From positions 1 to 64,000 of the forward strand of contig NZ_BONC01000004.1 of assembly GCF_016862515.1 (NCBI RefSeq): 64,000 nt of DNA. The letters are read 5' to 3'. Below are positions 21,450-35,952 of the stretch, piece by piece. Every line of letters starts with the position of its first letter. The stretch's first letter is position 1. The notes below the pieces were generated by a model, which had not been told where the DNA came from, searched no databases, and saw nothing but the letters and a program-made list of their open reading frames with translations. The position numbers and the translations under genes are program-made. The stretch comes from Asanoa iriomotensis (GTDB lineage: Bacteria > Actinomycetota > Actinomycetes > Mycobacteriales > Micromonosporaceae).

Positions 21450-22442
21450 TCAGACCTCGACCAGCCGCCGCCCGGCGTCGCGACAGGCCGCCAGCACGTC
21501 CTTCGCATAGGGGAGCGACGCGCCGGCCAGCCCGCAGGTCGGCGTCACCACGACCTGCTCGGCCAGCAACGACCGGCCGAAGCCGAGCTGGTTCCAGACC
21601 GCCCGTATCCGGTCGGCAAGATCGCCCGAACGGGGCGCCCGGGCACCGCTGGTCGCCGCCACGCCGGCCAGCAACCCGACACCGGCGTCGATCGCCTCGC
21701 CCAACGGGTCCAGCGCCGTCACCAGCGAAAGATCGAGCGAGAGGGCCGAAGCGCCGGCCGAGACCAACAGCGCCACGGGTACGTCCGCCGCACAGCAATG
21801 GAACACGACGGGGGCGCCCACGGCCGTGACCAGGGATCGCAACGTGTCGGTGGCGACCGACTCCTCCACGGCCCGGTAGGCGCTGAACCCGCTCTCGGTC
21901 GGCACCCGCCCGGCCAGCACCGTCGGCAGGGACGGCTCGTCGACCTGCAGCAGCACGGTCGCGCCCGGCAGCCGCCGCCGCACGTCCTCGACGTGCCCCC
22001 GCAGCCCTTCCGCCAGCGACGTCGCCAGGTCGCGGACCGCTCCCGGGTCGCGCAGCAACCGCCCGCCGACCGGCAGGTCGACGTTCGCGGCCAGCGTCCA
22101 CGGCCCGGCCGCCTGCACCTTGATCACGCCGGTGTAGCCGTCGCCCTGCTCGGTGAGCTGGTCGAGATCGCGCTCCAGCAGATCCAGCGCCCGCCGCAGG
22201 TCACGCCCGGGCCGCGCGGCGATCCGCCACTGCCCGACATAGAGCTCGACCGGCAGGTCGACGAGAAGCGCCGAGGTGCGCCCGATGATGTCGGAGCCGG
22301 GCCCCCGGGCGGGCAACTCCGCGAGGTGGGGCAGATCGGGCAACTCGCCCAACACCATCCGCTGCGCCTCGACGATGTCGGTGCCGGGCATCGAGCCGAC
22401 GCCCGTCGCGCTGCCGGCGGGCCAGGACCAACGATCACTCAC
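21450..22442 (-). CDS. MetE C-terminal-like (cobalamin-independent methionine synthase family) protein
   Basis: Encodes 330 aa, about half of full MetE and matching only its catalytic barrel. The start GSATGVGSMPGTD is typical of the actinobacterial short family. Zinc ligands appear conserved: HCCAAD (His and Cys) near residue 210 and TPTCGLAG near 305. Short MetE-like proteins transfer methyl groups to thiols, but the acceptor and methyl donor of this family are not established, so calling it methionine synthase would be premature. Its GTG start overlaps the stop of the CDP-alcohol phosphotransferase gene by 8 nt, linking it to that transcript. Confidence 0.8.
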   Translation of the reverse strand: MSDRWSWPAGSATGVGSMPGTDIVEAQRMVLGELPDLPHLAELPARGPGSDIIGRTSALLVDLPVELYVGQWRIAARPGRDLRRALDLLERDLDQLTEQGDGYTGVIKVQAAGPWTLAANVDLPVGGRLLRDPGAVRDLATSLAEGLRGHVEDVRRRLPGATVLLQVDEPSLPTVLAGRVPTESGFSAYRAVEESVATDTLRSLVTAVGAPVVFHCCAADVPVALLVSAGASALSLDLSLVTALDPLGEAIDAGVGLLAGVAATSGARAPRSGDLADRIRAVWNQLGFGRSLLAEQVVVTPTCGLAGASLPYAKDVLAACRDAGRRLVEV

Positions 22443-23169
22443 GAGGGACGAGCCTACCGATCACCCGGGTACGGGCGACCGGGTGACCGGCGCGCCACAG
22501 CCAGAGAACGTCGCGGCCGAACGACTCGACCAGGAGCGCGAACGCGACCAGCAGCAGCACGAGCGTCGCCCGGAACGGCAGCACGCCCGCGGTCGCGGTG
22601 ACCAGCGCGACGCCCTGTGTCGCCGCGACGACCTTGCGCCAGTACCGGGGCGGCAGCGTCCCGCGCATCCACCGCGTCGACCAGATGCCGAGCAGGAACG
22701 CGTACCGCATGCCGCCGATCGCCAGCACCCACCAGCCCGCGGACGGCGCCACGTAGACGCTGAGCACGAGGACCAGGAACGAGTCGGCCTCCATGTCGAA
22801 CCGCGCCCCGAACGCCGACGTGGTGCCCGTGCGCCGGGCGACCTGCCCGTCGACGCCGTCGAGCAGCAGCGCGACCACGACCAGCCCGACGATCGCGCCG
22901 ACCGCGGGCGCCTGCTGGAGCGAGTCGACGACGAGCGCCGCGACCACGCCGATCAGGACCGTCCTGGCGGCCGTCACCCAGTCGGCCGGGCCGTACCTCT
23001 TGAGTCCGGTTGATGACAGTCCGTGTTGAAGAAGAATCATGGTGACGAGTGCGTACGCGACGCCGGTAAACCAACCAGCGGCGCCGATACCGACCGCAGC
23101 CCCCACTGCAGCAAGCACGATGAACTGGGCAAACATGCCGACCAGGGGGCCGGATCGAACAACGCGCAT
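22435..23169 (-). CDS. CDP-alcohol phosphotransferase family membrane protein
   Basis: Encodes 244 aa with about six hydrophobic segments. The family signature is complete: DGVDGQVARR then G....D...D in FGARFDMEADSF (around residues 105-130), which binds the CDP-alcohol and two metals. Such enzymes exchange CMP for an alcohol to make phosphodiesters such as phosphatidylinositol phosphate. Which alcohol is used here is unknown. A GGAGG ribosome-binding site precedes the ATG by 4 nt. It faces the eight-gene operon at 23251 across an 81-bp gap, so I include it in the same proposed pathway. Confidence 0.85.
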   Translation of the reverse strand: MRVVRSGPLVGMFAQFIVLAAVGAAVGIGAAGWFTGVAYALVTMILLQHGLSSTGLKRYGPADWVTAARTVLIGVVAALVVDSLQQAPAVGAIVGLVVVALLLDGVDGQVARRTGTTSAFGARFDMEADSFLVLVLSVYVAPSAGWWVLAIGGMRYAFLLGIWSTRWMRGTLPPRYWRKVVAATQGVALVTATAGVLPFRATLVLLLVAFALLVESFGRDVLWLWRAGHPVARTRVIGRLVPRE

Positions 23170-23250
23170 CGTTCCTCCGTGTCATGAAGCGGCACATGCA
23201 GGTACGGGAGATGGGATCGTTCGGTTCATGCACATGACGGAGAGCCACGA
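23170..23250. promoter_or_regulatory. Divergent promoter region of the FAPy-type cluster
   Basis: The 81 bp between the divergent starts hold CATGAA at 23183-23188 opposed by TTCATG at 23225-23230. CACATG occurs twice in direct orientation (23193-23198, 23231-23236), and CCGTGTCATG is matched by CATGACGG on the other side. The imperfect dyad suggests a shared operator. I cannot place -35 and -10 elements with confidence. Confidence 0.4.
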
Positions 23251-24228
23251 GTGAGCCCGACCGAACGCGCCTTCTGGGTCGTCTCACCAGGCACGGGAGA
23301 GATCCGTCCGGAGACCGTTCCCGACCCGAATCCCGACGAGGTGCGTGTCCGCACGCTCCGCTCCGGCGTCAGCCGGGGCACCGAGACGCTGGTGTTCCGC
23401 GGTGCCGTGCCGGCGAGCCAGCACACGGCCATGCGGGCCCCGTACCAGGAAGGCGATTTCCCTGGTCCGGTGAAGTACGGCTACCTCAACGTCGGCGTGG
23501 TCGAGGAGGGTCCGGAGGAGCTGCGCGGCCGCACGGTCTTCTGCCTCTACCCGCACCAGACCGGTTACGTCGTCCCCGCGTTCGCGGTGGTGCCCGTGCC
23601 CGAGGCGGTGCCGCCGTCGCGGGCAGTCCTGGCCGGCACGGTCGAGACCGCGGTCAACGCCCTCTGGGACGCCCCGCCGCTGGTCGGCGACCGGGTGACG
23701 GTGGTCGGCGGCGGCATGGTCGGCTGCAGCGTCGCCCGGCTCCTGGCCGGCTTCCCGGGCGTGGAGGTCGAGTTGCTCGACGTGGACCCGGCGCGGGAGG
23801 AGACCGCCGCCGCGCTCGACGTCGGCTTCGCCCACCCGGACGCCGCGAAAACCGGCCGTGACCTGGTCTTCCACGCCAGCGCGACGGAGGCGGGCCTGCG
23901 CCGGTCACTGGAGTTGCTGCGGCCGGAGGGCACGGTCGTCGAGCTGAGCTGGTACGGCGACCGTGAGGTGACCGTGCCGCTCGGCGCCGGCTTCCACTCC
24001 GGACGGTTGACCGTGCGGGCCAGCCAGGTCGGCATGGTCGCACCGGCCCGGCGCTCCAGCCGGTCCTATGCGGACCGCGTCGCCCTCGCCCTCGACCTGC
24101 TGCGCGATCCGGCGTTCGACGCCCTGCTCAGCGCGGAGCACCCGTTCGAGCGACTACCCGAGGTGCTGCCGGACCTGGCGTCTGGCAGCCTGGCCGGGTT
24201 GTGCCACGTCATCACCTACGGAGAGTAG
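23251..24228 (+). CDS. MDR-family (zinc-type alcohol) dehydrogenase-like protein
   Basis: Encodes 325 aa. The N-terminal catalytic domain has [14 protein letters not shown] where zinc enzymes carry a Cys ligand, so the catalytic zinc is probably absent. The nucleotide-binding fold is clear: [17 protein letters not shown] near residue 150, then VELLDVDP ending the second strand. The pattern resembles BchC-type and sugar-alcohol MDR oxidoreductases. The GTG at 23251 follows GGAG. It is the first gene of the eight-gene operon; the PTPS-like gene starts 8 nt after its stop. Expected reaction: NAD(P)-dependent oxidation or reduction of a pathway intermediate. Confidence 0.8.
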
Positions 24229-24236
24229 AGAAACAC

Positions 24237-24635
24237 ATGTTCAGCGTCACGGTGCGCGATCACATGATGGTCGCCCACAGCTTCCGCGGCGAGGTCTTCG
24301 GCCCCGCTCAGCAGCTGCACGGAGCGACCTTCCTGGTCGACGCCACGTTCCGCCGGGCCGACGTCGACGCCGACGGCATCGTCGTCGACATCGCCCTCGC
24401 GTCGGAGCAGCTCAAGGCCGTCGTGGGCCAGTTCAACCTGCGCAACCTCGACGACGACCCGACGCTGGCCGGGCGCAACACGACCACCGAGGTGCTGGCC
24501 AAGGTCATCGCGGACCGGCTGGCCGAGCAGGCGAAGGCCGGCGCCCTCGGCGAAGGGGGGCGTGAGCTGGCCGGCATCACCGTGACCCTGCACGAGTCAC
24601 ACATCGCGTGGGCGAGCTACGAGCGATCGCTGTGA
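24237..24635 (+). CDS. PTPS/QueD-family homologue lacking catalytic residues
   Basis: Encodes 132 aa, the T-fold size of 6-pyruvoyl/6-carboxytetrahydropterin synthases. Only parts of the active site survive: first zinc His (MVAHSF, His14) and second His (LHGATF, His28) are kept. The third ligand of the HGH motif is Ala30. The catalytic Cys four residues before HGH is Ala24. The Asp-His pair (DHxxLN) reads FNLRNL. The substrate-binding Glu near the end is kept ([12 protein letters not shown]). So it should bind a pterin- or pyrimidine-like ring but not run QueD chemistry. The ATG at 24237 is preferred over an upstream in-frame ATG inside the previous gene. Confidence 0.85.
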
Positions 24636-25639
24636 ACCTTTCGCCGCCGGGCCTCGTACAGGTCGTCGTGCCAGACGACATCGACGACCCGGCGTTCCCC
24701 AGCGGTGGGAACGCGTACGACCGACGGGTCCTCGACGGTCTGGCGGCGCTGCGTTGGACGGTGCGTGAGCACCCGGTCCCGGTCGGTGCCCCGCTCGGCC
24801 CGGTGCTGGACGCCCTGCCCGACGGCGCGCTCGTGGTGGTCGACGGCCTGCTGGCCACCGGGGTCCCGGTCGACCGGGTCGGCCGCCTCCGCCTCGTCGT
24901 GCTGGCGCACATGGTCTTCGGCGTGCCGGGCGAGCGCGAGGTGCTGGCGGCCGCCGACGCGGTGATCACGACCAGCGAGTGGTGCAAGCGGCACCTGGCT
25001 GCCACGTACGGCGTGCCGGCGACGGCCGCCCCGCCCGGTGTCGAACCGGCCCCGGTGACGCCGCCCAGCGTCGCCGGGTCGCGGCTCCTCTGCGTCGCCG
25101 CCGTCGTGCCGCACAAGGGCCACGACGTGCTCGCCGGCGCGCTGGCGGCGCTGCCGGTGGGCGGCTGGAGCTGCCTGTGCGTCGGCTCGCTGGAGCGGGA
25201 GCCCGGCTTCGCCGGGGAGGTGCGGCGTACGGCGCCGGCGGGCATGCGGTTCGCGGGCCCGCTGGTCGGCGCCGATCTGGAGGCCGCGTACGCCGACGCC
25301 GACCTGCTGGTGCTGCCCTCCCGCGCCGACTCGTACGGGATGGTCGTCACCGAGGCCCTGGCCCGCGGCATCCCCGTGCTGGCCACCACCGCGCAGGGGC
25401 TGCCCGACACGCTCGGCCGCGCCCCCGACGGCAGCCGGCCCGGGATGCTGGTGCCGCCCGGCGATCCGGCCGCGCTCGCCGCCGCGCTGCGGCGCTGGCT
25501 GTCCGAACCGTCCGCCCGCGACGCGCTCCGCTCGTCGGCCCTTATGCGTCGAACGACGCTGACGGGCTGGCCCGAGACCGCGACGCTGGCCTCCGATGTC
25601 CTGTCCACGGTCGCGATGCGGGAGAGCACGAGCAGATGA
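24632..25639 (+). CDS. GT4-type glycosyltransferase
   Basis: Encodes 335 aa with a GT-B fold. The C-terminal half carries [16 protein letters not shown], a sugar-nucleotide region [19 protein letters not shown] and the EX7E-type acidic positions near [11 protein letters not shown]. These place it in the GT4 retaining family. No membrane segment is seen. The GTG at 24632 overlaps the PTPS-like stop (GTGA); an in-frame GTG at 24608 is less likely. Its own stop overlaps the next gene (ATGA). In the pathway it would add a sugar to the pyrimidine-derived product or its lipid carrier; both donor and acceptor are unknown. Confidence 0.85.
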
Positions 25640-26442
25640 CGAGCGTCCTGATGCCCAGCGTCAGCCCCAACTGGCTGCGCCTGCGTGAAGCCGCCGACGG
25701 GGCCGCACGCTCCGCCGAGCTGGTCGCCCTGCTGGGCGAGCGGTTCGCCGCCGCGGACCGGCTGGTGATCCACGACCTCGGCTGCGGCACCGGCGCGGCG
25801 GCCCGCTGGCTGGCACCGCAGTTCCCGGCCACCCAGCACTGGATCATGTGGGACCGCGACGCGGACCTGCTCGGCGCCGCCATGTCCGGCAAGCCCGCGG
25901 GCATCACCGGCGCGACCCGGCAGCGGGACATCGGCACGCTGCGCGCCGCCGACCTGGCCGGCGCCGACCTGGTCACCGCCTCGGCGTTGATCGACATCCT
26001 GACCGTCGCCGAGATCGACGCCGTCGCCGCGGCGTGTGCCGAGGCGCGCGTACCCGCTTTGATCATGTTGTCCGTCGTCGGCCGGGTGGAACTGTCCCCG
26101 GCCGACCCGTTCGACGCGGAGGTGGCCGCGGCGTTCAACGCGCACCAGCGGCGGACGGTCGGCGAGCGCGCGCTGCTCGGGCCCGACGCGGTCACCGCGC
26201 TCTCGGACGCGTTCGCGCGCCACGGCGTCGCGGTCACGCTGCGGCCGAGCCCGTGGGAGCTCGGCGCGGACGACCACGACCTGTTGACGACCTGGTTCCG
26301 GGAGTGGCTGGGCGCGGCGGTCGAACAGGTGCCCGCTTTGGGTAAACCGGCCGAGGGGTACGCACGGCGGCGCCTGGCTGAGATCGCCGAGGGACGGCTC
26401 ACCGCGACCGTCCACCACGTCGACCTGCTGGCGATGCCGTGA
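25636..26442 (+). CDS. SAM-dependent methyltransferase
   Basis: Encodes 268 aa with a class I fold. Motif I reads LVIHDLGCGTGAAARWL near residue 50, an acidic strand-2 end follows in WIMWDRDADLL, and ADLVTASALIDIL fits motif IV. The C-terminal part ends in a helix-rich tail. Start and stop both overlap neighbours by 4 nt (ATGA and GTGA), so it is tightly coupled in the operon. It probably methylates the pathway product or precursor; O, N or C target is not readable. Confidence 0.85.
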   Translation: MTSVLMPSVSPNWLRLREAADGAARSAELVALLGERFAAADRLVIHDLGCGTGAAARWLAPQFPATQHWIMWDRDADLLGAAMSGKPAGITGATRQRDIGTLRAADLAGADLVTASALIDILTVAEIDAVAAACAEARVPALIMLSVVGRVELSPADPFDAEVAAAFNAHQRRTVGERALLGPDAVTALSDAFARHGVAVTLRPSPWELGADDHDLLTTWFREWLGAAVEQVPALGKPAEGYARRRLAEIAEGRLTATVHHVDLLAMP

Positions 26443-27482
26443 CCACGCTCGCGACGCCGCCGCCCCGCACGGCGACACCGCGCATCCCGGCGCAGCGGTC
26501 CGAGCGGCCTGCTCCGGCCGTCCGGCCCGCCCGGCCCGCGGTGAAGGCCCGGATCTGGGCCTGGGCTCGCCTCGCCGCCGGCGTGGGTGTCCTCGCCGTG
26601 CTCGTCTGGCGCCTGGGCAGCGGGCCGTTCCTGGAGGGCCTGCGGGGCGTCGACGCCACGGCGATCGCCCTCGCCTTCGGGATCGGCGTGGTCACCACGG
26701 TGGCCTGCGCCTACCGGTGGGCGCTGGTGGCCCGCGCGCTCGGCGTCCGGCTGCCGATGCGGGAGGCCGTCGGCGCCTACTACCGGGCCCAGTTCCTCAA
26801 CACCACCCTGCCCGGCGGCGTGGTCGGCGACGTGCACCGGGCCGTCCGGCACGGCAAGGACATCGGCGACGTGGCGCTGGGCGTACGCGCGGTCGTGGTC
26901 GAGCGGATGGCCGGTTTCGTGGTCACGATCGCCCTGTCCGTGGTAGCGCTGGCCGTTTTACCGTCGCCGGTGCGCGGGCACATGCCGCTCGCGGTCGCCG
27001 CGCTGGCCGTGGTGGCGCTGGCCGCGTACCTGATCAAGGGCCGGATCAAGATCCGCACTGGACTGTCGCACGCGGGCACGGGGATCGGCGTCGTGCTGAC
27101 CACCGCGGCCGTGCTGGCCGGCCACCTGATCACCTTCCTGGTCGCGGCGCGGACCGCCGGGGCGACCGCCCCGCTGCACCTGCTCGCGCCGCTGACCCTG
27201 CTGGCCCTGCTGGCCATGGCGCTGCCGTGCAACATCGCCGGCTGGGGCCCGCGCGAGGGCGTGGCCGCCTGGGCGTTCGGCGCGGCCGGGCTGACCTCCG
27301 CCCAGGGCGTGGCCACGGCGGTCGTGTTCGGCGTGTTGGCCCTGGTCGCGAGCCTGCCGGGGGCCGTGGTGCTGGTGCTGCGTTGGGCGGACCGGCGGCG
27401 CGCTGCGGAGAAACCGGTAATGCTGGAGCATGAACTACCGGACAGCGGCGTCCACCGGCGACCGGAGACCAGCCATGGCTGA
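26439..27482 (+). CDS. Lysylphosphatidylglycerol synthase TM-region (UPF0104-like) membrane protein
   Basis: Encodes 347 aa with about eight hydrophobic segments after a Pro-rich N-terminus. It has the family marks of the MprF flippase-like region: YYRAQFLNTTLPGGVVGDVHRAVRHG near residue 115 and LPCNIAGWGPREGVAAWAF near 265. No aminoacyl-transferase domain follows, so only the transporter-like part is present. Relatives are thought to move lipid-linked molecules across the membrane. This fits a product that ends up in or outside the membrane. Overlaps with the neighbours are 4 nt (GTGA) and 8 nt. Confidence 0.85.
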   Translation: MTTLATPPPRTATPRIPAQRSERPAPAVRPARPAVKARIWAWARLAAGVGVLAVLVWRLGSGPFLEGLRGVDATAIALAFGIGVVTTVACAYRWALVARALGVRLPMREAVGAYYRAQFLNTTLPGGVVGDVHRAVRHGKDIGDVALGVRAVVVERMAGFVVTIALSVVALAVLPSPVRGHMPLAVAALAVVALAAYLIKGRIKIRTGLSHAGTGIGVVLTTAAVLAGHLITFLVAARTAGATAPLHLLAPLTLLALLAMALPCNIAGWGPREGVAAWAFGAAGLTSAQGVATAVVFGVLALVASLPGAVVLVLRWADRRRAAEKPVMLEHELPDSGVHRRPETSHG

Positions 27483-28167
27483 GCGACCCTACATCCTGTT
27501 GAGCTGCGCGATGTCCATCGACGGTTATGTCAACGACACCGCCGACGAGCGCCTGCTGCTGTCCAACGCCGTCGATTTCGAGCGGGTCGACCACGTCCGC
27601 GCCGGCTGCGACGCGATCCTGGTCGGCGCCGAGACGGTCCGCCGCGACAACCCGCGCCTCGTGGTCAAGTCGGCGGAGCACCGGGCCGCCCGGGTGGCCC
27701 GCGGCCAGCACCCGTCGCCCCGCAAGGTGACCGTCACCGAGGGCGCCGGGCTCGACGCCGAGGCCGCCTTCTTCCAGGAGGGCGAGGCGGAGAAGCTGGT
27801 CTACTGCGCGAGTTCCACTGTGGACCAGGCGCGGTCGCGGCTGGGCCGGCACGCGACGATCGTCGACGGCGGGCAGCCGGTCAACCTGCGTCAGGTCGCC
27901 GAGGACCTCTACTCCCGCGGCGTCGGCCGGCTGATGGTCGAGGGCGGCGGCACCATACACACCCAGTTCCTGACCGAGGAGCTCGCCGACGAGCTGCACC
28001 TGGTGGTGGCGCCGTTCTTCGTCGGCGACTCGAAGGCACCCCGGTTCGTGGGCGACGGGGAGTTCCCCTGGAGCCAGGAGCGCCGGGCGACGCTGGCGGA
28101 GGTGCGCCAGGTGGGCGACGTGGTGTTGTTGCGGTACGCGCTCTCGCCCCGGTTCGGCACCGTCTGA
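27475..28167 (+). CDS. Stand-alone RibD C-terminal-type reductase
   Basis: Encodes 230 aa with a DHFR-like fold. Family motifs are present: [16 protein letters not shown] at the start, [15 protein letters not shown] near residue 45 and [14 protein letters not shown] near 155 for NADPH binding. There is no cytidine-deaminase domain. Stand-alone forms (archaeal and fungal Rib7 type) reduce the ribosyl chain of a pyrimidine before or after deamination. Here it overlaps the cyclohydrolase gene, so it may reduce a FAPy-derived ribosylaminopyrimidine. The ATG at 27475 lies inside the end of the previous gene. Two other RibD-like proteins (32615, 35323) are more distant in motif. Confidence 0.88.
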
Positions 28168-28178
28168 TGAGGAGATTG

Positions 28179-28811
28179 ATGGACGACGCGACGATACGCA
28201 CCGAGGTGTCGGTCCCCCTCCGGTTCCCCGACGGCTACGCCACGACGGCCGAGGTCTTCTCGTTCCACGGGCTCGCCGACGACAAGGAGCACGTCGCGCT
28301 CGGGCTCGGCGACTGGCGCGGTGCCGTGGCCCGCGACGAGGCGCCGCTGGTGCGCCCGCACAGCGAGTGCCTGACCGGTGACGTGTTCGGCAGCGAGCGC
28401 TGCGACTGCGGCCCGCAGCTGCGCGAGGCGGTCGAGCGGATCAGCAACGCGGGCGGGCTCCTGCTCTACCTCCGCCAGGAGGGCCGGGGGATCGGCCTCT
28501 ACGCCAAGCTCGACGCGTACGCGCTGCAGGACACCGGAATGGACACCTACGAGGCGAACCTCGCGCTCGGGCACGCGGAGGACGAGCGTGACTACACGGT
28601 CGCCGCGCAGATGCTGTTGGCCCTCGGCGTCGACCGGATCGCGCTGCTGTCCAACAATCCCGACAAGGAGGAGCAGCTCGCCTCGCTGGGTGTGACCGTG
28701 ACGAAGCGGGTGCCGACGCTGCTGCACCTGTCGGCCGCGAACGCCGGCTATCTCGCGGCCAAGGCGCGCCACGCCCGGCGTACCGCCGAACCCGACTGGC
28801 TCGCGTCGTGA
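28179..28811 (+). CDS. GTP cyclohydrolase II homologue with Tyr-to-Met change (predicted FAPy-forming)
   Basis: Encodes 210 aa from the ATG at 28179, which has AGGAG 4 nt upstream; an ATG at 28167 overlaps the previous stop (TGATGA) and adds 4 residues. Zinc Cys residues 64, 75 and 77 ([18 protein letters not shown]) and the GTP motif RQEGRGIGL are intact, as is the DERD segment. The residue matching E. coli Tyr105 is Met121 ([10 protein letters not shown] versus DQGYDTVEAN). In S. coelicolor SCO6655 the same change makes the enzyme stop at 2-amino-5-formylamino-6-ribosylamino-4(3H)-pyrimidinone phosphate (FAPy). I infer the same here: the first step of a pathway separate from riboflavin synthesis. 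Confidence 0.9.
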
Positions 28812-30406
28812 AGAGCCGGATCCTGACCGGCCTGGCCGCGTTCTTCGTCCTGCTGCTCCTGCTCCTCCCCGACGACTTCGCCGCGCTGAGCCCGTGGGCG
28901 ATCGTCGTCATCCCGCTCGAGGCCCTCGTCGGCGTCGCGGTCGTGGTGCTGCTGCCGCCGCGCGCCCGCACGGTCACCGGCATCGTCGCCGGCGTGCTGC
29001 TCGGCGCGATCACCATCCTCAAGCTGCTCGACCTGGGCTTCGGCGTCACGCTCTCGCGGCAGTTCGACCCGCTGTCGGACTGGTCGCTGTTCCGCGCGGC
29101 CTCGGAGTGGGTGTCGGAGTCGTTCGGCAAGCCCGGCGCCGTCGCGGCGATCGTCGTCGCGATCCTGCTGGCGATCGCGCTGCCGGTGCTCGCGACGCTG
29201 TCGATCCTGCGGCTGTCGCGCGTCGTGGCGGTCCGCCGGTCGCTGGCCCTGCGGGTGGTCGCGGTGCTCGGCGTGGCCTGGGTGACGCTCGCCCTGCTGG
29301 GCGTCCACGTGGTGTCCGGCGTGCCGGTCGCGGGCCGGACGACGGCGGCCGCCGCCTACGGGCACGCGGCGCAACTGCGGGAAGACATCGCGGACATGGC
29401 CGCGTACGACCGCGAGGAGCAGGCCGACGCCTACCGCGACGTACCCGCCTCGCAGTTGTTGCAAGGCTTGCGGGGCAAGGACGTCATCTTCGCGTTCGTG
29501 GAGAGCTACGGCCGGGACGCGGTGAACTACCCGCAGACCGCGTCGCTGCTGGCGTCCCGGTCGTCGTCGCTGGCGGCGGCGGGCTTCCAGGCGCAGAGCG
29601 GTTGGCTGACCTCGTCGACGATCGGTGGCGGGAGCTGGCTGGCCCACTCGACGTTCCAGTCCGGTCTGTGGATCGACAGCCAGCGGCGGTACGGGCGGTT
29701 CACGGAAGGTTCCCGGTACACGCTGACCACCGCGTTCTCGAAGGCGGGCTGGCGGACGGTCGCGGTGATGCCGGCCAACCGGCGCGACTGGCCGGAGGGT
29801 CGGATCTACGGCTTCGACAAGGAGTACGACGACCGGACGCTCGGCTACAAGGGCCAGGGTTTCGCCTTCTCGTCCATCCCTGACCAGTTCACGCTGCACT
29901 CGTTCCGGCAGATGGAGTTGGCCAAGCCGCTGGCCGAGCGCCAGCCGGTGATGGCGGAGATCGACCTGCTGTCCAGCCACGCGCCGTGGGACCCGGTGCC
30001 GCCGATGATGTCGTGGGACGAGTTGGGTGACGGGTCGACGTATCCCGGCAACGGCGGGCGCGGCGGCAACCCCGGCGAGATCGACAACGAGGAGGCGTCG
30101 AAGGTCCGCGAAAACTACCGGCGGACGGTCGAGTACTCGGTCGACAGCCTGGTGTCCTATATGGAGAAGTACGGAGACGAGAACACCGTGCTGGTGATGT
30201 TGGGCGACCACCAGCCGTCGCCGATCATCACGGGCAAGGACCCCAACCGGGACGTGCCGATCACGGTGATCGCCAAGGATCCCAAGGTGTTGCCGCAGAT
30301 CTCGTCGTGGGCCTGGTCGCCCGGGCTGGCCCCGGCGGCGGAGGCCCCGGTCTGGCGGATGGACGCGTTCCGCGACAAGTTCCTGGCGGCGTTCGCGGCG
30401 CCCTAG
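28808..30406 (+). CDS. Membrane alkaline phosphatase/sulfatase-superfamily enzyme (LtaS-like)
   Basis: Encodes 532 aa. About four or five hydrophobic segments fill residues 5-165. An extracellular alkaline-phosphatase-fold domain follows: [12 protein letters not shown] near residue 225, a nucleophile Thr/Ser region [20 protein letters not shown] near 270, and LVMLGDHQP with the metal-binding Asp-His near 465. This resembles lipoteichoic acid synthase and phosphoethanolamine or phosphoglycerol transferases. In the pathway it could transfer a phospho-alcohol outside the cell. The GTG overlaps the previous stop by 4 nt. Its stop shares a CTAG with the convergent TetR gene. Confidence 0.8.
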
Positions 30407-31050
30407 CTTTCGCCGAGGAGGCCGCGCAGAACCCCGCGGAGGGCGCGGTCGAAGAGGTCGGTGTTCTGCGTGCCACTGGGCTCGGCCAGGGCGGCCGCGA
30501 GGTGCGGGTGGCGGGCCGGGTCCAGGGCGGCGAAGGGGTTCGCGGCTGAGCTGCTCGTGGTGCGGCTGAAGAGGACCACCAGGCCGGTCATCACCGCGAT
30601 CGCCTCGAACTTGGTGGCGGTCGGTGCCTCGAGGGTCCGCATCGCGCCCAGGCAGTGGTCGAACCACGACAGCGCCTGCGGGCCGATCGCGGTCGGGCGC
30701 TGGATCAGGTCGGCCAGCCAGGGGTGCCGGCGGTGCAGGTCGAGTTGGCTGTTGGCGAGCGCGGTGAGTTGGTCCAGCCAGTCGCCCTCCGGCTCCGGGT
30801 AGGGGCGTAGCTCGCCGACCGCGTGGTCGGTCATCAGGTCCAGCAGGTCGTCGCGGGACGAGAGGTAGCGGTAGAGGGCGCCGGCCGCGGTGCCCAGCTT
30901 CGTGGCGACCGCGCGCATCGAGACCGCGGGCAGGCCGTCCGTGTCGGCGATCGCGATCGCGGCCGCCACGATCTCCTCCCGCGTGTGGCCGGGTGCGGGT
31001 CCGCGGGTGCCGCGTACGGGTCGGGTCCAGATGGGTTGCGCGTCTGCCAC
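30403..31050 (-). CDS. TetR-family repressor with C-terminal TetR_C-like domain
   Basis: Encodes 215 aa. The N-terminal helix-turn-helix reads IVAAAIAIADTDGLPAVSMRAVATKLG then LYRYLSSRDDLLDLM. The C-terminal ligand domain is of the tetracycline-repressor-like class. The GTG at 31050 has TACAGT (-10) 6 nt upstream and no clear ribosome-binding site, so it is probably leaderless. It diverges from an alpha/beta hydrolase gene; the palindrome between them (31062-31086) overlaps its -10 and is the likely operator. It ends on a CTAG shared with the convergent membrane enzyme. Confidence 0.85.
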   Translation of the reverse strand: MADAQPIWTRPVRGTRGPAPGHTREEIVAAAIAIADTDGLPAVSMRAVATKLGTAAGALYRYLSSRDDLLDLMTDHAVGELRPYPEPEGDWLDQLTALANSQLDLHRRHPWLADLIQRPTAIGPQALSWFDHCLGAMRTLEAPTATKFEAIAVMTGLVVLFSRTTSSSAANPFAALDPARHPHLAAALAEPSGTQNTDLFDRALRGVLRGLLGES

Positions 31051-31061
31051 CTCATCACTGT

Positions 31062-31086
31062 AAACTGCGAACCACGTTCGCGGTTT
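31062..31086. promoter_or_regulatory. TetR operator: 25-bp palindrome between tetR and hydrolase genes
   Basis: AAACTGCGAAC and GTTCGCGGTTT form 11-bp inverted arms with a single mismatch around CAC. It abuts the tetR -10 (TACAGT, 31057-31062) and ends 14 nt before the hydrolase ATG. A repressor here would block both genes. Confidence 0.8.
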
Positions 31087-31099
31087 TGGAGGTCTCTCT

Positions 31100-31936
31100 A
31101 TGGAACTGGTCATGGCGCGCGACGGTGTCCCCATCGCGGTGCATTCCACGGGCACGGGTCCGGGCATCGTGGTCGTGCACGGCGGCGGGGTCACGATCGA
31201 CGTCTACCAACGGTTCGCGGCGGCGCTGGCGGACCGGTTCACCGTGCACCTCTACAACCGGCGCGGGCGGGGCGACGCGGGGCCGCGCGAGGTGCCCTAC
31301 ACGGGATCGCAGGACGTCGACGACCTGGCCGCGGTGCTCGCGCACACCGGTTCGAGCTATGTGGTCGGCCACAGCGGCGGCGGGTTCGTCGCGCTGTCGG
31401 CGGCGCTGCGGCTGCCGATCGCGCGGTTGGCGCTCTACGACGCCGCGGTGTCGGTCGACGGCAACACACCCTCGGCCTGGCTCCCGGCCGCGCGGGCGGC
31501 GGCGGACGCGGGCGACCCGGCCCGCGCCCTGGCGATCACGGCCGCCGGGATCAACACCCACCAGGCGGCCTCGAAGCTGCCGCTGGGCCTGCGGGTGGCG
31601 ATGACCCGGTTGTTCCTGCGCACACCGATCGGCCGCATGATGGGCGACCTGGTGTCGATGACGCTGGACGAGACGGCGCTGATCCACGCCGCCGACGGCC
31701 CGGCATCGCGCTGGTCGGGCGTGACGGCCGAGGTCCTGCTGGCGTGCGGCGCGGACGGCCCGCCCTACTACGTGACAGGCAACGAGGCGCTGGCCGCGGC
31801 GATGCCGCAGGCCCGTGCGATCGTCATCCCCCGCAGCGGCCACGACGCGATCAACCGGGCCCATCCGCGGCTGGTGGAGCCGCTCGCGGACTTCTTCGGC
31901 GCCCCGGCCCCATCCCGCGACAACGCGACACCTTAG
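31100..31936 (+). CDS. Alpha/beta hydrolase
   Basis: Encodes 278 aa. The nucleophile elbow is VVGHSGGGFVAL (Ser near residue 92), the oxyanion loop HGGGVTIDVYQ is at about 33, and the catalytic His is in PRSGHDAINR near 253. The acid is probably the Asp in LLACGADGPP. The ATG at 31100 follows GGAGG with 7 nt spacing. It is controlled, by position, by the divergent TetR gene and the palindrome between them. Typical substrates are small esters or antibiotics; none can be named. Confidence 0.88.
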   Translation: MELVMARDGVPIAVHSTGTGPGIVVVHGGGVTIDVYQRFAAALADRFTVHLYNRRGRGDAGPREVPYTGSQDVDDLAAVLAHTGSSYVVGHSGGGFVALSAALRLPIARLALYDAAVSVDGNTPSAWLPAARAAADAGDPARALAITAAGINTHQAASKLPLGLRVAMTRLFLRTPIGRMMGDLVSMTLDETALIHAADGPASRWSGVTAEVLLACGADGPPYYVTGNEALAAAMPQARAIVIPRSGHDAINRAHPRLVEPLADFFGAPAPSRDNATP

Positions 31937-32614: not shown

Positions 32615-33154
32615 ATGCGGACCATCACGATCGGCCAGTTCATGTCGTTGGACGGGGTCGTCGAAGAGCCTGACAAGTGGCACAGCTCGTACGTCGACGA
32701 CGATCTCCTGGGTGCGATGTCAGCCGAGCGGATCGACACCATGCTGCTCGGGCGGGTGACCTACGAGAGCTTCGCCGGTGCGTTCGGTGAGCTGCCCGAC
32801 GATCACCCGGCGGGCGCGTACATGAACCGGCCCGAGAAGATCGTTGTTTCGCGGTCGCTGTCGACGCTGTCGTGGCGGCGCTCGACGCTGCTGCCGGAGG
32901 GTGACGTCGTGGAGCGGGTGGCGGAACTCAAGGAGGGCGACGGAGGGCCCATCTTCATGCCCGGCAGCATCACGCTGAGCCAGACCCTGTTGCGCGCCGG
33001 CCTCGTCGACCGCATCAGCCTGCTCGTCCACCCGATCGTGGTGGGCCACGGGCGGCGGCTCTTCCCCGAGTCGATGGCCCAGGTCCCGTTCACCCTCGAG
33101 CGGTGCGACGTCTTCGGCAGCGGCGTGACCTACCAGGTCTACGCGGTCCGGTAA
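32615..33154 (+). CDS. RibD C-terminal/DHFR-like family protein
   Basis: Encodes 179 aa. Start TITIGQFMSLDGVVEEPDKW, then MLLGRVTYESFAGAF and IFMPGSITLSQTLL fit the DHFR-like YyaP/YwjB-type family. The NADPH-binding EGG of true RibD reductases is changed to MPGS. A GAGGAG ribosome-binding site precedes the ATG. The terminator at 33158 follows. It is not part of the 23-30 kb operon and its substrate is unknown. Confidence 0.85.
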   Translation: MRTITIGQFMSLDGVVEEPDKWHSSYVDDDLLGAMSAERIDTMLLGRVTYESFAGAFGELPDDHPAGAYMNRPEKIVVSRSLSTLSWRRSTLLPEGDVVERVAELKEGDGGPIFMPGSITLSQTLLRAGLVDRISLLVHPIVVGHGRRLFPESMAQVPFTLERCDVFGSGVTYQVYAVR

Positions 33155-35322: not shown

Positions 35323-35952
35323 CTAACGGACGACGCGGTAGCGCAGGTGGGTCACGCCCGGTGCGTCGACGACCCGCAGCTTCTCCAGTGTGGCGGCGGG
35401 CACCTGGTCGAAGAGCCGGACACCGCCGCCGAGCAGCAGCGGCACGACGTGCAGTTGGATCTCGTCGAGCAGGCCCAGCCGCAGGCACTCGCGCACCGGG
35501 CTCGCGCCCATCAGGCTCACGTAGCGGTCACCGGCCGCCGCCGAAGCCTGTGCCACGGCGGTCGAGATGTCGTCGGTGAACGTGTAGGCGCTCTCGCCGA
35601 CCGGCACCGACGACGGTGGCCGGTGGGTCAGCACGAACACCGGCACCCCGGGCACGGGACCGTTGCCGCCCCACGCGCCGGCGATGTCGTACGTCCGCCG
35701 CCCGGTGATCACGGCCCCGCCGGAGTCGACCAGCTCGCCGAACACCTCGGCGCTGGCCCGCGACAGCCGGAACGGCGGCACCCGGACCCCGCGCGCGGCC
35801 GCCTCCTCGTACGCCCGGATCGGTGTCTCGCCGTCGAAGTACCACCGGAACAGGCCCTCTCCGCCCGCGCCGAGCGGGTTCTGCGGCCCGTCGCCCGCGC
35901 CGGCGACAAACCCGTCCAGCGACACCGTCAGATCCACGATCACCTTGGCCAT
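35323..35952 (-). CDS. Dihydrofolate reductase-like (RibD C-terminal family) protein
   Basis: Encodes 209 aa. Start VIVDLTVSLDGFVAG, then GGAVITGRRTYDIAGAWGG and YVSLMGASPVRECLRLGL, ending in LRYRVVR, match the actinobacterial DHFR-like family widely annotated as 'dihydrofolate reductase family'. As in the protein at 32615, the EGG motif of true RibD reductases is changed (LMGAS). It would be a flavin- or NADPH-dependent reductase of unknown substrate. Confidence 0.82.
   Translation of the reverse strand: MAKVIVDLTVSLDGFVAGAGDGPQNPLGAGGEGLFRWYFDGETPIRAYEEAAARGVRVPPFRLSRASAEVFGELVDSGGAVITGRRTYDIAGAWGGNGPVPGVPVFVLTHRPPSSVPVGESAYTFTDDISTAVAQASAAAGDRYVSLMGASPVRECLRLGLLDEIQLHVVPLLLGGGVRLFDQVPAATLEKLRVVDAPGVTHLRYRVVR

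Follow-up and report, generated by a model that had tools for sequence, protein, structure and literature searches.

A conserved actinobacterial gene cluster linking GTP cyclohydrolase II and a PTPS-like protein to membrane enzymes, with two probable versions of the first step

A divergent cluster of nine genes was analysed at positions 22435-30406 of a 64,000-nt stretch of DNA from Asanoa iriomotensis (Micromonosporaceae; contig NZ_BONC01000004.1, positions 1 to 64,000), which is referred to here as the window. The cluster joins a GTP cyclohydrolase II (GCH II), a stand-alone RibD_C-type pyrimidine reductase and a protein of the 6-pyruvoyl-tetrahydropterin synthase (PTPS) family to an MDR-family dehydrogenase, a glycosyltransferase of family GT4, a methyltransferase and three membrane proteins. 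Each of the nine reading frames is open, their order is that given by a previous interpretation of the letters alone (the sequence-only reading), and the set is conserved. At about even chances, we take the cluster to be a dedicated biosynthetic operon, which would add a third end point to the GTP cyclohydrolase II/III branch, next to riboflavin and F420, and would begin with the formation of 2,5-diamino-6-ribosylamino-4(3H)-pyrimidinone 5′-phosphate (APy). APy is most likely the intermediate shared by all versions of the cluster: in the window it would be made from GTP by a single GCH II with tyrosine at the position of Tyr105 of Escherichia coli RibA (Tyr-type), while in Streptomyces-type loci a non-Tyr GCH II would stop at the formyl-bearing formamidopyrimidine (FAPy) and a creatininase-family formamidase would complete the conversion. 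The analysis supports the uncharacterised pathway that the sequence-only reading had proposed and extends it to other phyla, with archaeal cousins.

Partner genes were counted where the PTPS-like gene had 5 kb or more of sequence on each side, namely in 84 of 99 loci in a first set and 30 of 35 in a class sample, the PTPS-like gene being present by construction in all of them. The duplicates L032 and L054 were removed from these counts and from the set of 110 GCH II sequences described below, and were kept in the first-set residue table and the conservation tables; L003, a short copy of the window, and L152 and L157, in which the profile found no PTPS, were also dropped before counting. The genes for the MDR dehydrogenase and the GT4 glycosyltransferase were found beside the PTPS-like gene in every locus of both sets (84/84 and 30/30), so that the homologues are not scattered without their partners. 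They were followed by the LPG_synthase_TM gene (83/84 and 26/30), the CDP-alcohol phosphotransferase (78/84 and 27/30), the methyltransferase (76/84 and 23/30), GCH II (74/84 and 22/30), the RibD-type reductase (51/84 and 13/30), a creatininase-family gene (39/84 and 12/30) and the LtaS-like gene (31/84 and 12/30). The MDR gene stands directly upstream of the PTPS-like gene on the same strand in 83/84 and 28/30 of these loci, in 8/8 loci on bacterial plasmids and in 5/7 haloarchaeal loci. Chance would not give such an arrangement across genera and phyla. The PTPS-like gene itself occurs in 32 of 61 genomes (the window genome and 60 relatives) and in 57 of 394 genomes of the class sample at E 1e-25; an even phylum sample gave matches in 62 of 396 at E 0.001 and in just 10 at E <1e-30, and the weaker ones probably represent other PTPS types. 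A scan of genome contigs returned at least 581 PTPS-like relatives, of which the best 80 were kept. Among the matches listed, the closest named loci belong to Asanoa siamensis and A. ishikariensis, whose PTPS-like proteins are 94% and 92% identical to that of the window.

The GCH II of the window scores 189.6 bits against PF00925 (cut-off 23.3), and the equivalents of C54, C65, C67 and R128, which are the zinc cysteines and the catalytic arginine, are invariant in 85/85 cluster GCH II loci. The residue aligned to E. coli RibA position 105 is Tyr in 44, Met in 38 and His in 3 of the 85 loci of the first set, and all 38 Met enzymes come from Streptomycetaceae. The window enzyme has Tyr, as do all 30 of the best GCH II loci of relatives, the window included. 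The enzyme of reference is SCO6655, the GCH II of the Streptomyces coelicolor region that also holds SCO6650; Spoonamore (2006) reportedly showed that it forms FAPy, and its Met120 is the reported switch residue. A Met, or any other non-Tyr residue, at the Tyr105 column is not found in the window GCH II. The Met of its TGMDT motif was considered as the switch residue and rejected, because the Streptomyces Met falls in the column of E. coli Tyr105, which is occupied by Tyr in the window enzyme; the motif column holds Leu in 76, Met in 6 and Ala in 3 of 85 loci.

In the GCH II tree the window enzyme falls within a Tyr set of 48 rows with a Shimodaira-Hasegawa-like approximate likelihood ratio (SH-aLRT) support of 99. 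It shares about 47% identity with the enzyme of locus L073, and its median identity is 76% to Tyr loci (L011-L063) and 52% to loci bearing the creatininase-family gene. The corresponding medians for Tyr and creatininase-bearing loci are 72 and 71% for the MDR protein and 76 and 73% for the PTPS-like protein. Judged by their sequences, window-type and SCO6655-type GCH II are different lineages, and since the identities of GCH II split by group while MDR and PTPS-like proteins are equally close to both, the first enzyme would have been exchanged while the core partners were kept. This, together with GTP cyclohydrolase IIa beside the MDR gene in 3 of 8 haloarchaeal regions, makes the first-step enzymes of the cluster appear interchangeable. 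Window-type GCH II (E ≤1e-70) was found in 25 of 32 relatives with the PTPS-like gene and in 3 of 29 without it (Fisher p 9e-8, uncorrected for kinship). The latter three genomes (G014, G016 and G040; loci L132, L138 and L137) carry enzymes with E <1e-70 and Tyr at position 105, which reflect either broken clusters or another use of the enzyme; G033 and G035 have three window-type copies apiece. No match to the creatininase-family protein of Streptomyces loci was found in the window genome, other formamidase families not being sought. Because of this and of Tyr at position 105, the window GCH II should convert GTP to APy as a single enzyme. The description of the cluster as built around a FAPy-type cyclohydrolase could therefore not be upheld for a Tyr enzyme of another lineage than that of the Met enzymes.

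The presence of the creatininase-family gene follows the residue at position 105. In the first set it was found in 41/41 non-Tyr loci and in 0/44 Tyr loci. Among 110 distinct cluster GCH II sequences (Tyr 55, Met 41, His 7, Leu 6, Gln 1) it was present in the stretch for 54 of 55 non-Tyr enzymes and for none of 55 Tyr enzymes, and in the single exception, L191, it lies about 13 kb from the PTPS-like gene. The gene sits between the LPG_synthase_TM and GCH II genes in L057 and L073; in L085 it occurs in a stretch that lacks GCH II. Five changes of residue type at position 105 were counted on the GCH II tree, as expected if Tyr were no longer needed. The protein retains many Glu, His and Asp residues in the conservation table, and its scores against named families are all below cut-off (MftE 135 of 172 bits, creatininase 100 of 235, ArfB 36 of 180). 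According to PMC9478397, the Sinorhizobium protein BrbF, whose original annotation was creatinine amidohydrolase, deformylates FAPy to APy; the paper also describes a division of FAPy formation and deformylation over two enzymes in archaea, which the non-Tyr GCH II and the creatininase-family protein would mirror. By analogy, our guess is that the creatininase-family protein of Streptomyces-type loci is a FAPy formamidase.

Several observations weigh against this scheme. The creatininase-family protein stays under the ArfB cut-off, and in PMC9478397 complementation failed with BrbF homologues of greater distance. In three genomes whose cluster enzyme is of the Tyr-type (G015, G025 and G027), a creatininase-family homologue with 57-62% identity lies outside the cluster, and 10 of the 17 genomes searched for the protein gave no match. 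A single change on the GCH II tree, on a branch with support of 76, accounts for the difference between Tyr and non-Tyr enzymes, and a test of independent pairs between residue 105 and the creatininase-family gene had one pair only, so that the pairing is an old stable association and repeated coupling is not established. Of the 84 loci, 10 lack a nearby GCH II and 8 a nearby methyltransferase, and the LtaS-like gene was found in just 3 of 41 Streptomycetaceae stretches. In the first set and class sample together, a RibD-type gene lies close by in 43 of 46 GCH II loci without the creatininase-family gene and in 11 of 50 loci with it. In seven of seven Streptomyces genomes without a cluster RibD-type gene, no match to the Streptomyces-type reductase outside the cluster exceeded 50 bits, compared with 599 and 427 bits in two genomes that have one. 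Because the RibD-type gene is rare in creatininase-bearing loci and has no close copy elsewhere, reduction of the ribosyl chain is not proven as a general step; either some versions of the cluster go without it or a different enzyme carries it out. Finally, six haloarchaeal PTPS proteins keep the HSH motif and score low with the profiles used, so that the haloarchaeal clusters are better seen as cousins, whose chemistry and product may differ.

The only match of the window PTPS-like protein in the PDB at E 0.001 is 3d7j (SCO6650; E 2.7e-63), and together with the signature FGPAQxLHGAT this places it in the SCO6650 subfamily. It shares the T-fold family PF01242 with QueD and 6-pyruvoyl-tetrahydropterin synthase (COG0720), from which it differs in that Ala replaces both the catalytic Cys of QueD and the second His of the HxH zinc site; it scores 35 of the 89 bits needed for TIGR03367, and no queC or queE lies in the cluster. 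Each of the two Ala replacements is found in 97% or more of 144 sequences (duplicates kept), and both are therefore a trait of the subfamily and not decay. A conserved Glu presumably belongs to the pterin-binding region, as in the QueD/PTPS family. A review of the PTPS family (PMC5041015) distinguishes subfamilies I to IV, and its passages on them do not describe this gene context. The ring change that had been assigned to this protein is thus unproven, and the alternative that it serves as a non-enzymatic binding or scaffold protein for a diaminopyrimidine or pterin, with the ring left open and a diaminopyrimidine conjugate as product, gains from the two replacements and from the structure 3d7j, reportedly zinc-free. 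However, many other residues of the protein are equally conserved, as would be expected also of an enzyme, and the haloarchaeal cousins keep HSH; a scaffold role is rated as somewhat unlikely, and as the best placed of the alternatives.

Related clusters were found on alpha- and gammaproteobacterial and haloarchaeal plasmids. PTPS-like matches occurred in 20 records of a plasmid collection, including Rhizobium, Methylosinus, Thiodictyon and Rhodobacteraceae, and the MDR matches (best 40 of 50 records) include haloarchaea; 5 of the 12 haloarchaeal rows among the MDR matches listed have GTP cyclohydrolase IIa, a FAPy-forming type III enzyme, under the match. In Rhizobium sp. SL42 the order is sulfatase, LPG_synthase_TM, FkbM methyltransferase, CDP-alcohol phosphotransferase, RibA, MDR, PTPS, GT4, methyltransferase, RibD and cytochrome b, which is near the set of the window, and a Peteryoungia region has the same order. 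Profiles applied to the eight bacterial plasmid loci found the MDR dehydrogenase and methyltransferase in 8, GT4 and the RibD-type reductase in 7, the CDP-alcohol phosphotransferase in 5, LPG_synthase_TM and GCH II in 4 and the LtaS-like protein in 3. Among eight haloarchaeal regions, PTPS is annotated near MDR in 6 (a profile adds a seventh), the CDP-alcohol phosphotransferase is present in 4 and a creatininase-family gene in 1.

Additional neighbours were noted in these clusters. A cytochrome b (b561) gene adjoins the RibD-type gene in three gamma- and alphaproteobacterial loci (L143 11528-12085, L145 12062-12601 and L155 12055-12582), which suggests a membrane redox link. Ribokinase/PfkB-family kinase genes lie beside Rhodobacterales clusters (L148 6843-7763 and L156 10997-11887). 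A Gfo/Idh/MocA oxidoreductase is added in haloarchaea (L141 6081-7430, L149 5691-7430 and L142 5936-7906), the gene of Haloarcula marismortui matching this family and aldo/keto reductases alike. A gene for a 'hypothetical protein' adjoining MDR on pNG700 (L142 7996-8865) has a weak Sulfatase match (E 4.7e-4) and may be the archaeal equivalent of the LtaS-like gene.

The distribution of the partners also bears on whether the nine genes serve one pathway. They could form two side-by-side modules, one a GTP-pyrimidine branch supplying or tuning flavin or deazaflavin precursors and the other an unrelated module for an envelope glycolipid, as might be suspected from first enzymes of the riboflavin type and from the absence nearby of GCH II, RibD-type or LtaS-like genes in part of the loci. 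The position of MDR directly upstream of PTPS in nearly all loci argues against such a division, as does the CDP-alcohol phosphotransferase, which besides the actinobacterial loci is nearby in 5/8 bacterial plasmid and 4/7 haloarchaeal loci, and no RibB, RibH or RibE product is annotated in 17 plasmid regions; we consider two modules distinctly improbable. Still more doubtful is that the window cyclohydrolase makes FAPy and that the reductase and the PTPS-like protein use formyl-bearing FAPy itself, which would suit SCO6655, reportedly a FAPy former and from a cluster of this kind, and the IIa enzymes of haloarchaea, but which conflicts with Tyr at the switch position of an enzyme of different lineage and with the creatininase-family gene that accompanies all 55 non-Tyr enzymes and, if it encodes a formamidase, would consume FAPy.

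In the single biosynthetic pathway starting from APy, the RibD-type reductase, where present, would most likely reduce the ribosyl group, leaving a ribityl phosphate chain. Next, the diaminopyrimidine would be bound by the MDR dehydrogenase and the PTPS-like protein and probably condensed or rearranged into a pterin-like ring, after which it would be methylated and glycosylated. The CDP-alcohol phosphotransferase would join the polyol-phosphate part to a lipid, the LPG_synthase_TM protein would carry the lipid-linked product across the membrane, and the LtaS-like enzyme would transfer or trim a phosphodiester group outside. We infer the order of steps, the lipid linkage and the product, and methylation, glycosylation, lipid attachment, flipping and outside phosphotransfer are assigned from family knowledge. 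The product is probably membrane-linked, with a lipid-linked diaminopyrimidine or pterin as the leading reading.

The features of the cluster are listed in Table 1. Seven of the nine families exceed their Pfam cut-offs (CDP-alcohol phosphotransferase, PTPS, GT4, methyltransferase, LPG_synthase_TM, RibD_C and GTP cyclohydrolase II), and third-position GC is 0.88-0.97 across the nine genes.

Table 1. Genes of the cluster at 22435-30406 of the window
Gene product	Coordinates	Strand	Basis and remarks
CDP-alcohol phosphotransferase (membrane)	22435..23169	-	divergent first gene; PF01066 E 2.5e-15
MDR-family dehydrogenase, distantly BchC-like	23251..24228	+	NCBIfam bchC below cut-off; conservation n=144
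PTPS-like T-fold protein, SCO6650 subfamily	24237..24635	+	PF01242 E 7.4e-22
GT4 glycosyltransferase	24632..25639	+	PF13692 E 8.6e-23; start GTG 24632
Class I S-adenosylmethionine (SAM) methyltransferase, small-molecule type	25636..26442	+	PF13649 29.3 bits, cut-off 27
LPG_synthase_TM / flippase-like membrane protein	26439..27482	+	PF03706 E 6.1e-25; TIGR00374 43.9 bits, cut-off 43.2
Stand-alone RibD_C-type pyrimidine reductase	27475..28167	+	PF01872 E 1.6e-40
GTP cyclohydrolase II, Tyr-type (Tyr at E. coli position 105)	28167..28811	+	PF00925 E 3.9e-56
LtaS-like membrane enzyme, alkaline-phosphatase-superfamily domain	28808..30406	+	AlphaFold2 model and Foldseek

The motif DxxDGxxAR-x8-GxxxDxxxD is present in the CDP-alcohol phosphotransferase, and its residues are conserved in 125 sequences. 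The MDR protein matches bchC weakly (33.6 bits, cut-off 291), and its conserved motifs SRGTE and KYGY (144 sequences) presumably occupy the places expected for zinc ligands, while being unlike the usual ones. The methyltransferase was modelled with a predicted local distance difference test score (pLDDT) of 94, and Foldseek gave 3mgg as best match and otherwise generic small-molecule methyltransferases. The best NCBIfam score of the RibD-type reductase was that of the archaeal diaminopyrimidine reductase TIGR01508 (136 bits, under the cut-off of 186), and it also matches solved structures named diaminopyrimidine reductase; enzymes of this kind act ahead of deamination. Two further RibD_C-family matches near the cluster, at 32621-33130 (+) and 35383-35946 (-), gave no sign of pathway membership, and the window's genome holds 30 RibD_C matches in total. 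For the LtaS-like protein no Pfam match was obtained at E 0.001, the Sulfatase match being sub-threshold (E 0.0046). Its model (mean pLDDT 86, from a 28-row alignment) best matches LtaP/LtaS among PDB structures (E 6.5e-11), followed by GacH and EptA, at about 16% identity, and a profile search gave 4uop (E 1.1e-4). The N-terminal hydrophobic helices and the alkaline-phosphatase-superfamily domain are common to these enzymes, and ESYG and GDHQP are invariant across 28 LtaS-like sequences; in fold and motifs, the assignment of the last gene as LtaS-like is thus borne out.

The plus-strand genes had been described as mostly overlapping by 4-8 nt. With the likely starts this applies to five junctions (PTPS/GT4, GT4/methyltransferase, methyltransferase/LPG_synthase_TM and GCH II/LtaS-like with 4 nt; LPG_synthase_TM/RibD with 8 nt), whereas RibD and GCH II overlap by 1 nt, and MDR and PTPS are separated by a gap of 8 nt if the PTPS-like gene starts, as is probable, at 24237. 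An alternative longer start of the GT4 gene is possible at 24608. The divergent CDP-alcohol phosphotransferase gene is separated from the MDR gene by 81 nt. A scan for sigma-70 promoters and terminators returned a single candidate of each type, a yield similar to that from shuffled sequences. The cluster is flanked by a methionine-synthase-like gene and LigA (minus strand) on one side and by a TetR gene (30403-31194) on the other; the latter was dropped as a cluster member, since among the loci read it directly adjoins the cluster only in those of Asanoa.

The first chemistry of the cluster is that of riboflavin synthesis and of the archaeal route through ArfA, ArfB and a reductase, in which GTP is converted via FAPy to APy and the chain is then reduced to ribityl. 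In contrast to that route, PTPS-like, glycosyltransferase, methyltransferase and membrane enzymes come after it in the window cluster. RibB, RibH, RibE, QueC and QueE families, as well as any deaminase, were absent among the ten window proteins scanned, and RibD, GCH II and RibH matches grouped on another contig of the genome (G000:C19 67919-70813) are separate housekeeping riboflavin genes. The earlier conclusion that neither riboflavin nor 7-deazapurine synthesis explains the cluster therefore holds, and the cluster is supported as a dedicated, conserved set that combines a soluble, GTP-derived part with one in the membrane. The parallel drawn with the SCO6655 region stands for the core: the window PTPS-like protein belongs to the subfamily of SCO6650, and the Streptomyces loci read, which do not include that of S. 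coelicolor itself, have the same MDR-PTPS-GT4-methyltransferase-LPG_synthase_TM core with a divergent CDP-alcohol phosphotransferase. It does not extend to the first step or the last gene, since those with GCH II in the stretch combine a Met-type enzyme of the other lineage with the creatininase-family gene and rarely an LtaS-like gene, unlike the window with its Tyr-type GCH II, RibD-type reductase and LtaS-like gene. Searches of openly licensed PubMed Central (PMC) papers for the cluster or its parts listed none that describes the cluster; a study of S. coelicolor (PMC2853524) lists SCO6655 among genes whose expression ran counter to predicted flux, most of them rising in stationary phase.

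A more far-reaching and speculative idea, which we regard as unlikely, is that actinobacteria, proteobacteria and haloarchaea share a new class of membrane lipid with a GTP-derived ribityl-diaminopyrimidine or 8-ribityl-pterin head group, glycosylated, methylated and attached through a polyol phosphate by the CDP-alcohol phosphotransferase; in view of the b561 neighbours in three proteobacterial clusters, it might be a membrane-bound redox or light-absorbing cofactor. In the pathway proposed here, an odd GCH II that reportedly stops at FAPy and the orphan structure of SCO6650 fall into one place, and a testable answer is offered for the missing deformylation, which the neighbouring creatininase-family protein would carry out. 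This pathway is widespread and has archaeal cousins, and a product that proved to be lipid-linked would bring a nucleotide-derived head group into the range of membrane lipids known so far.

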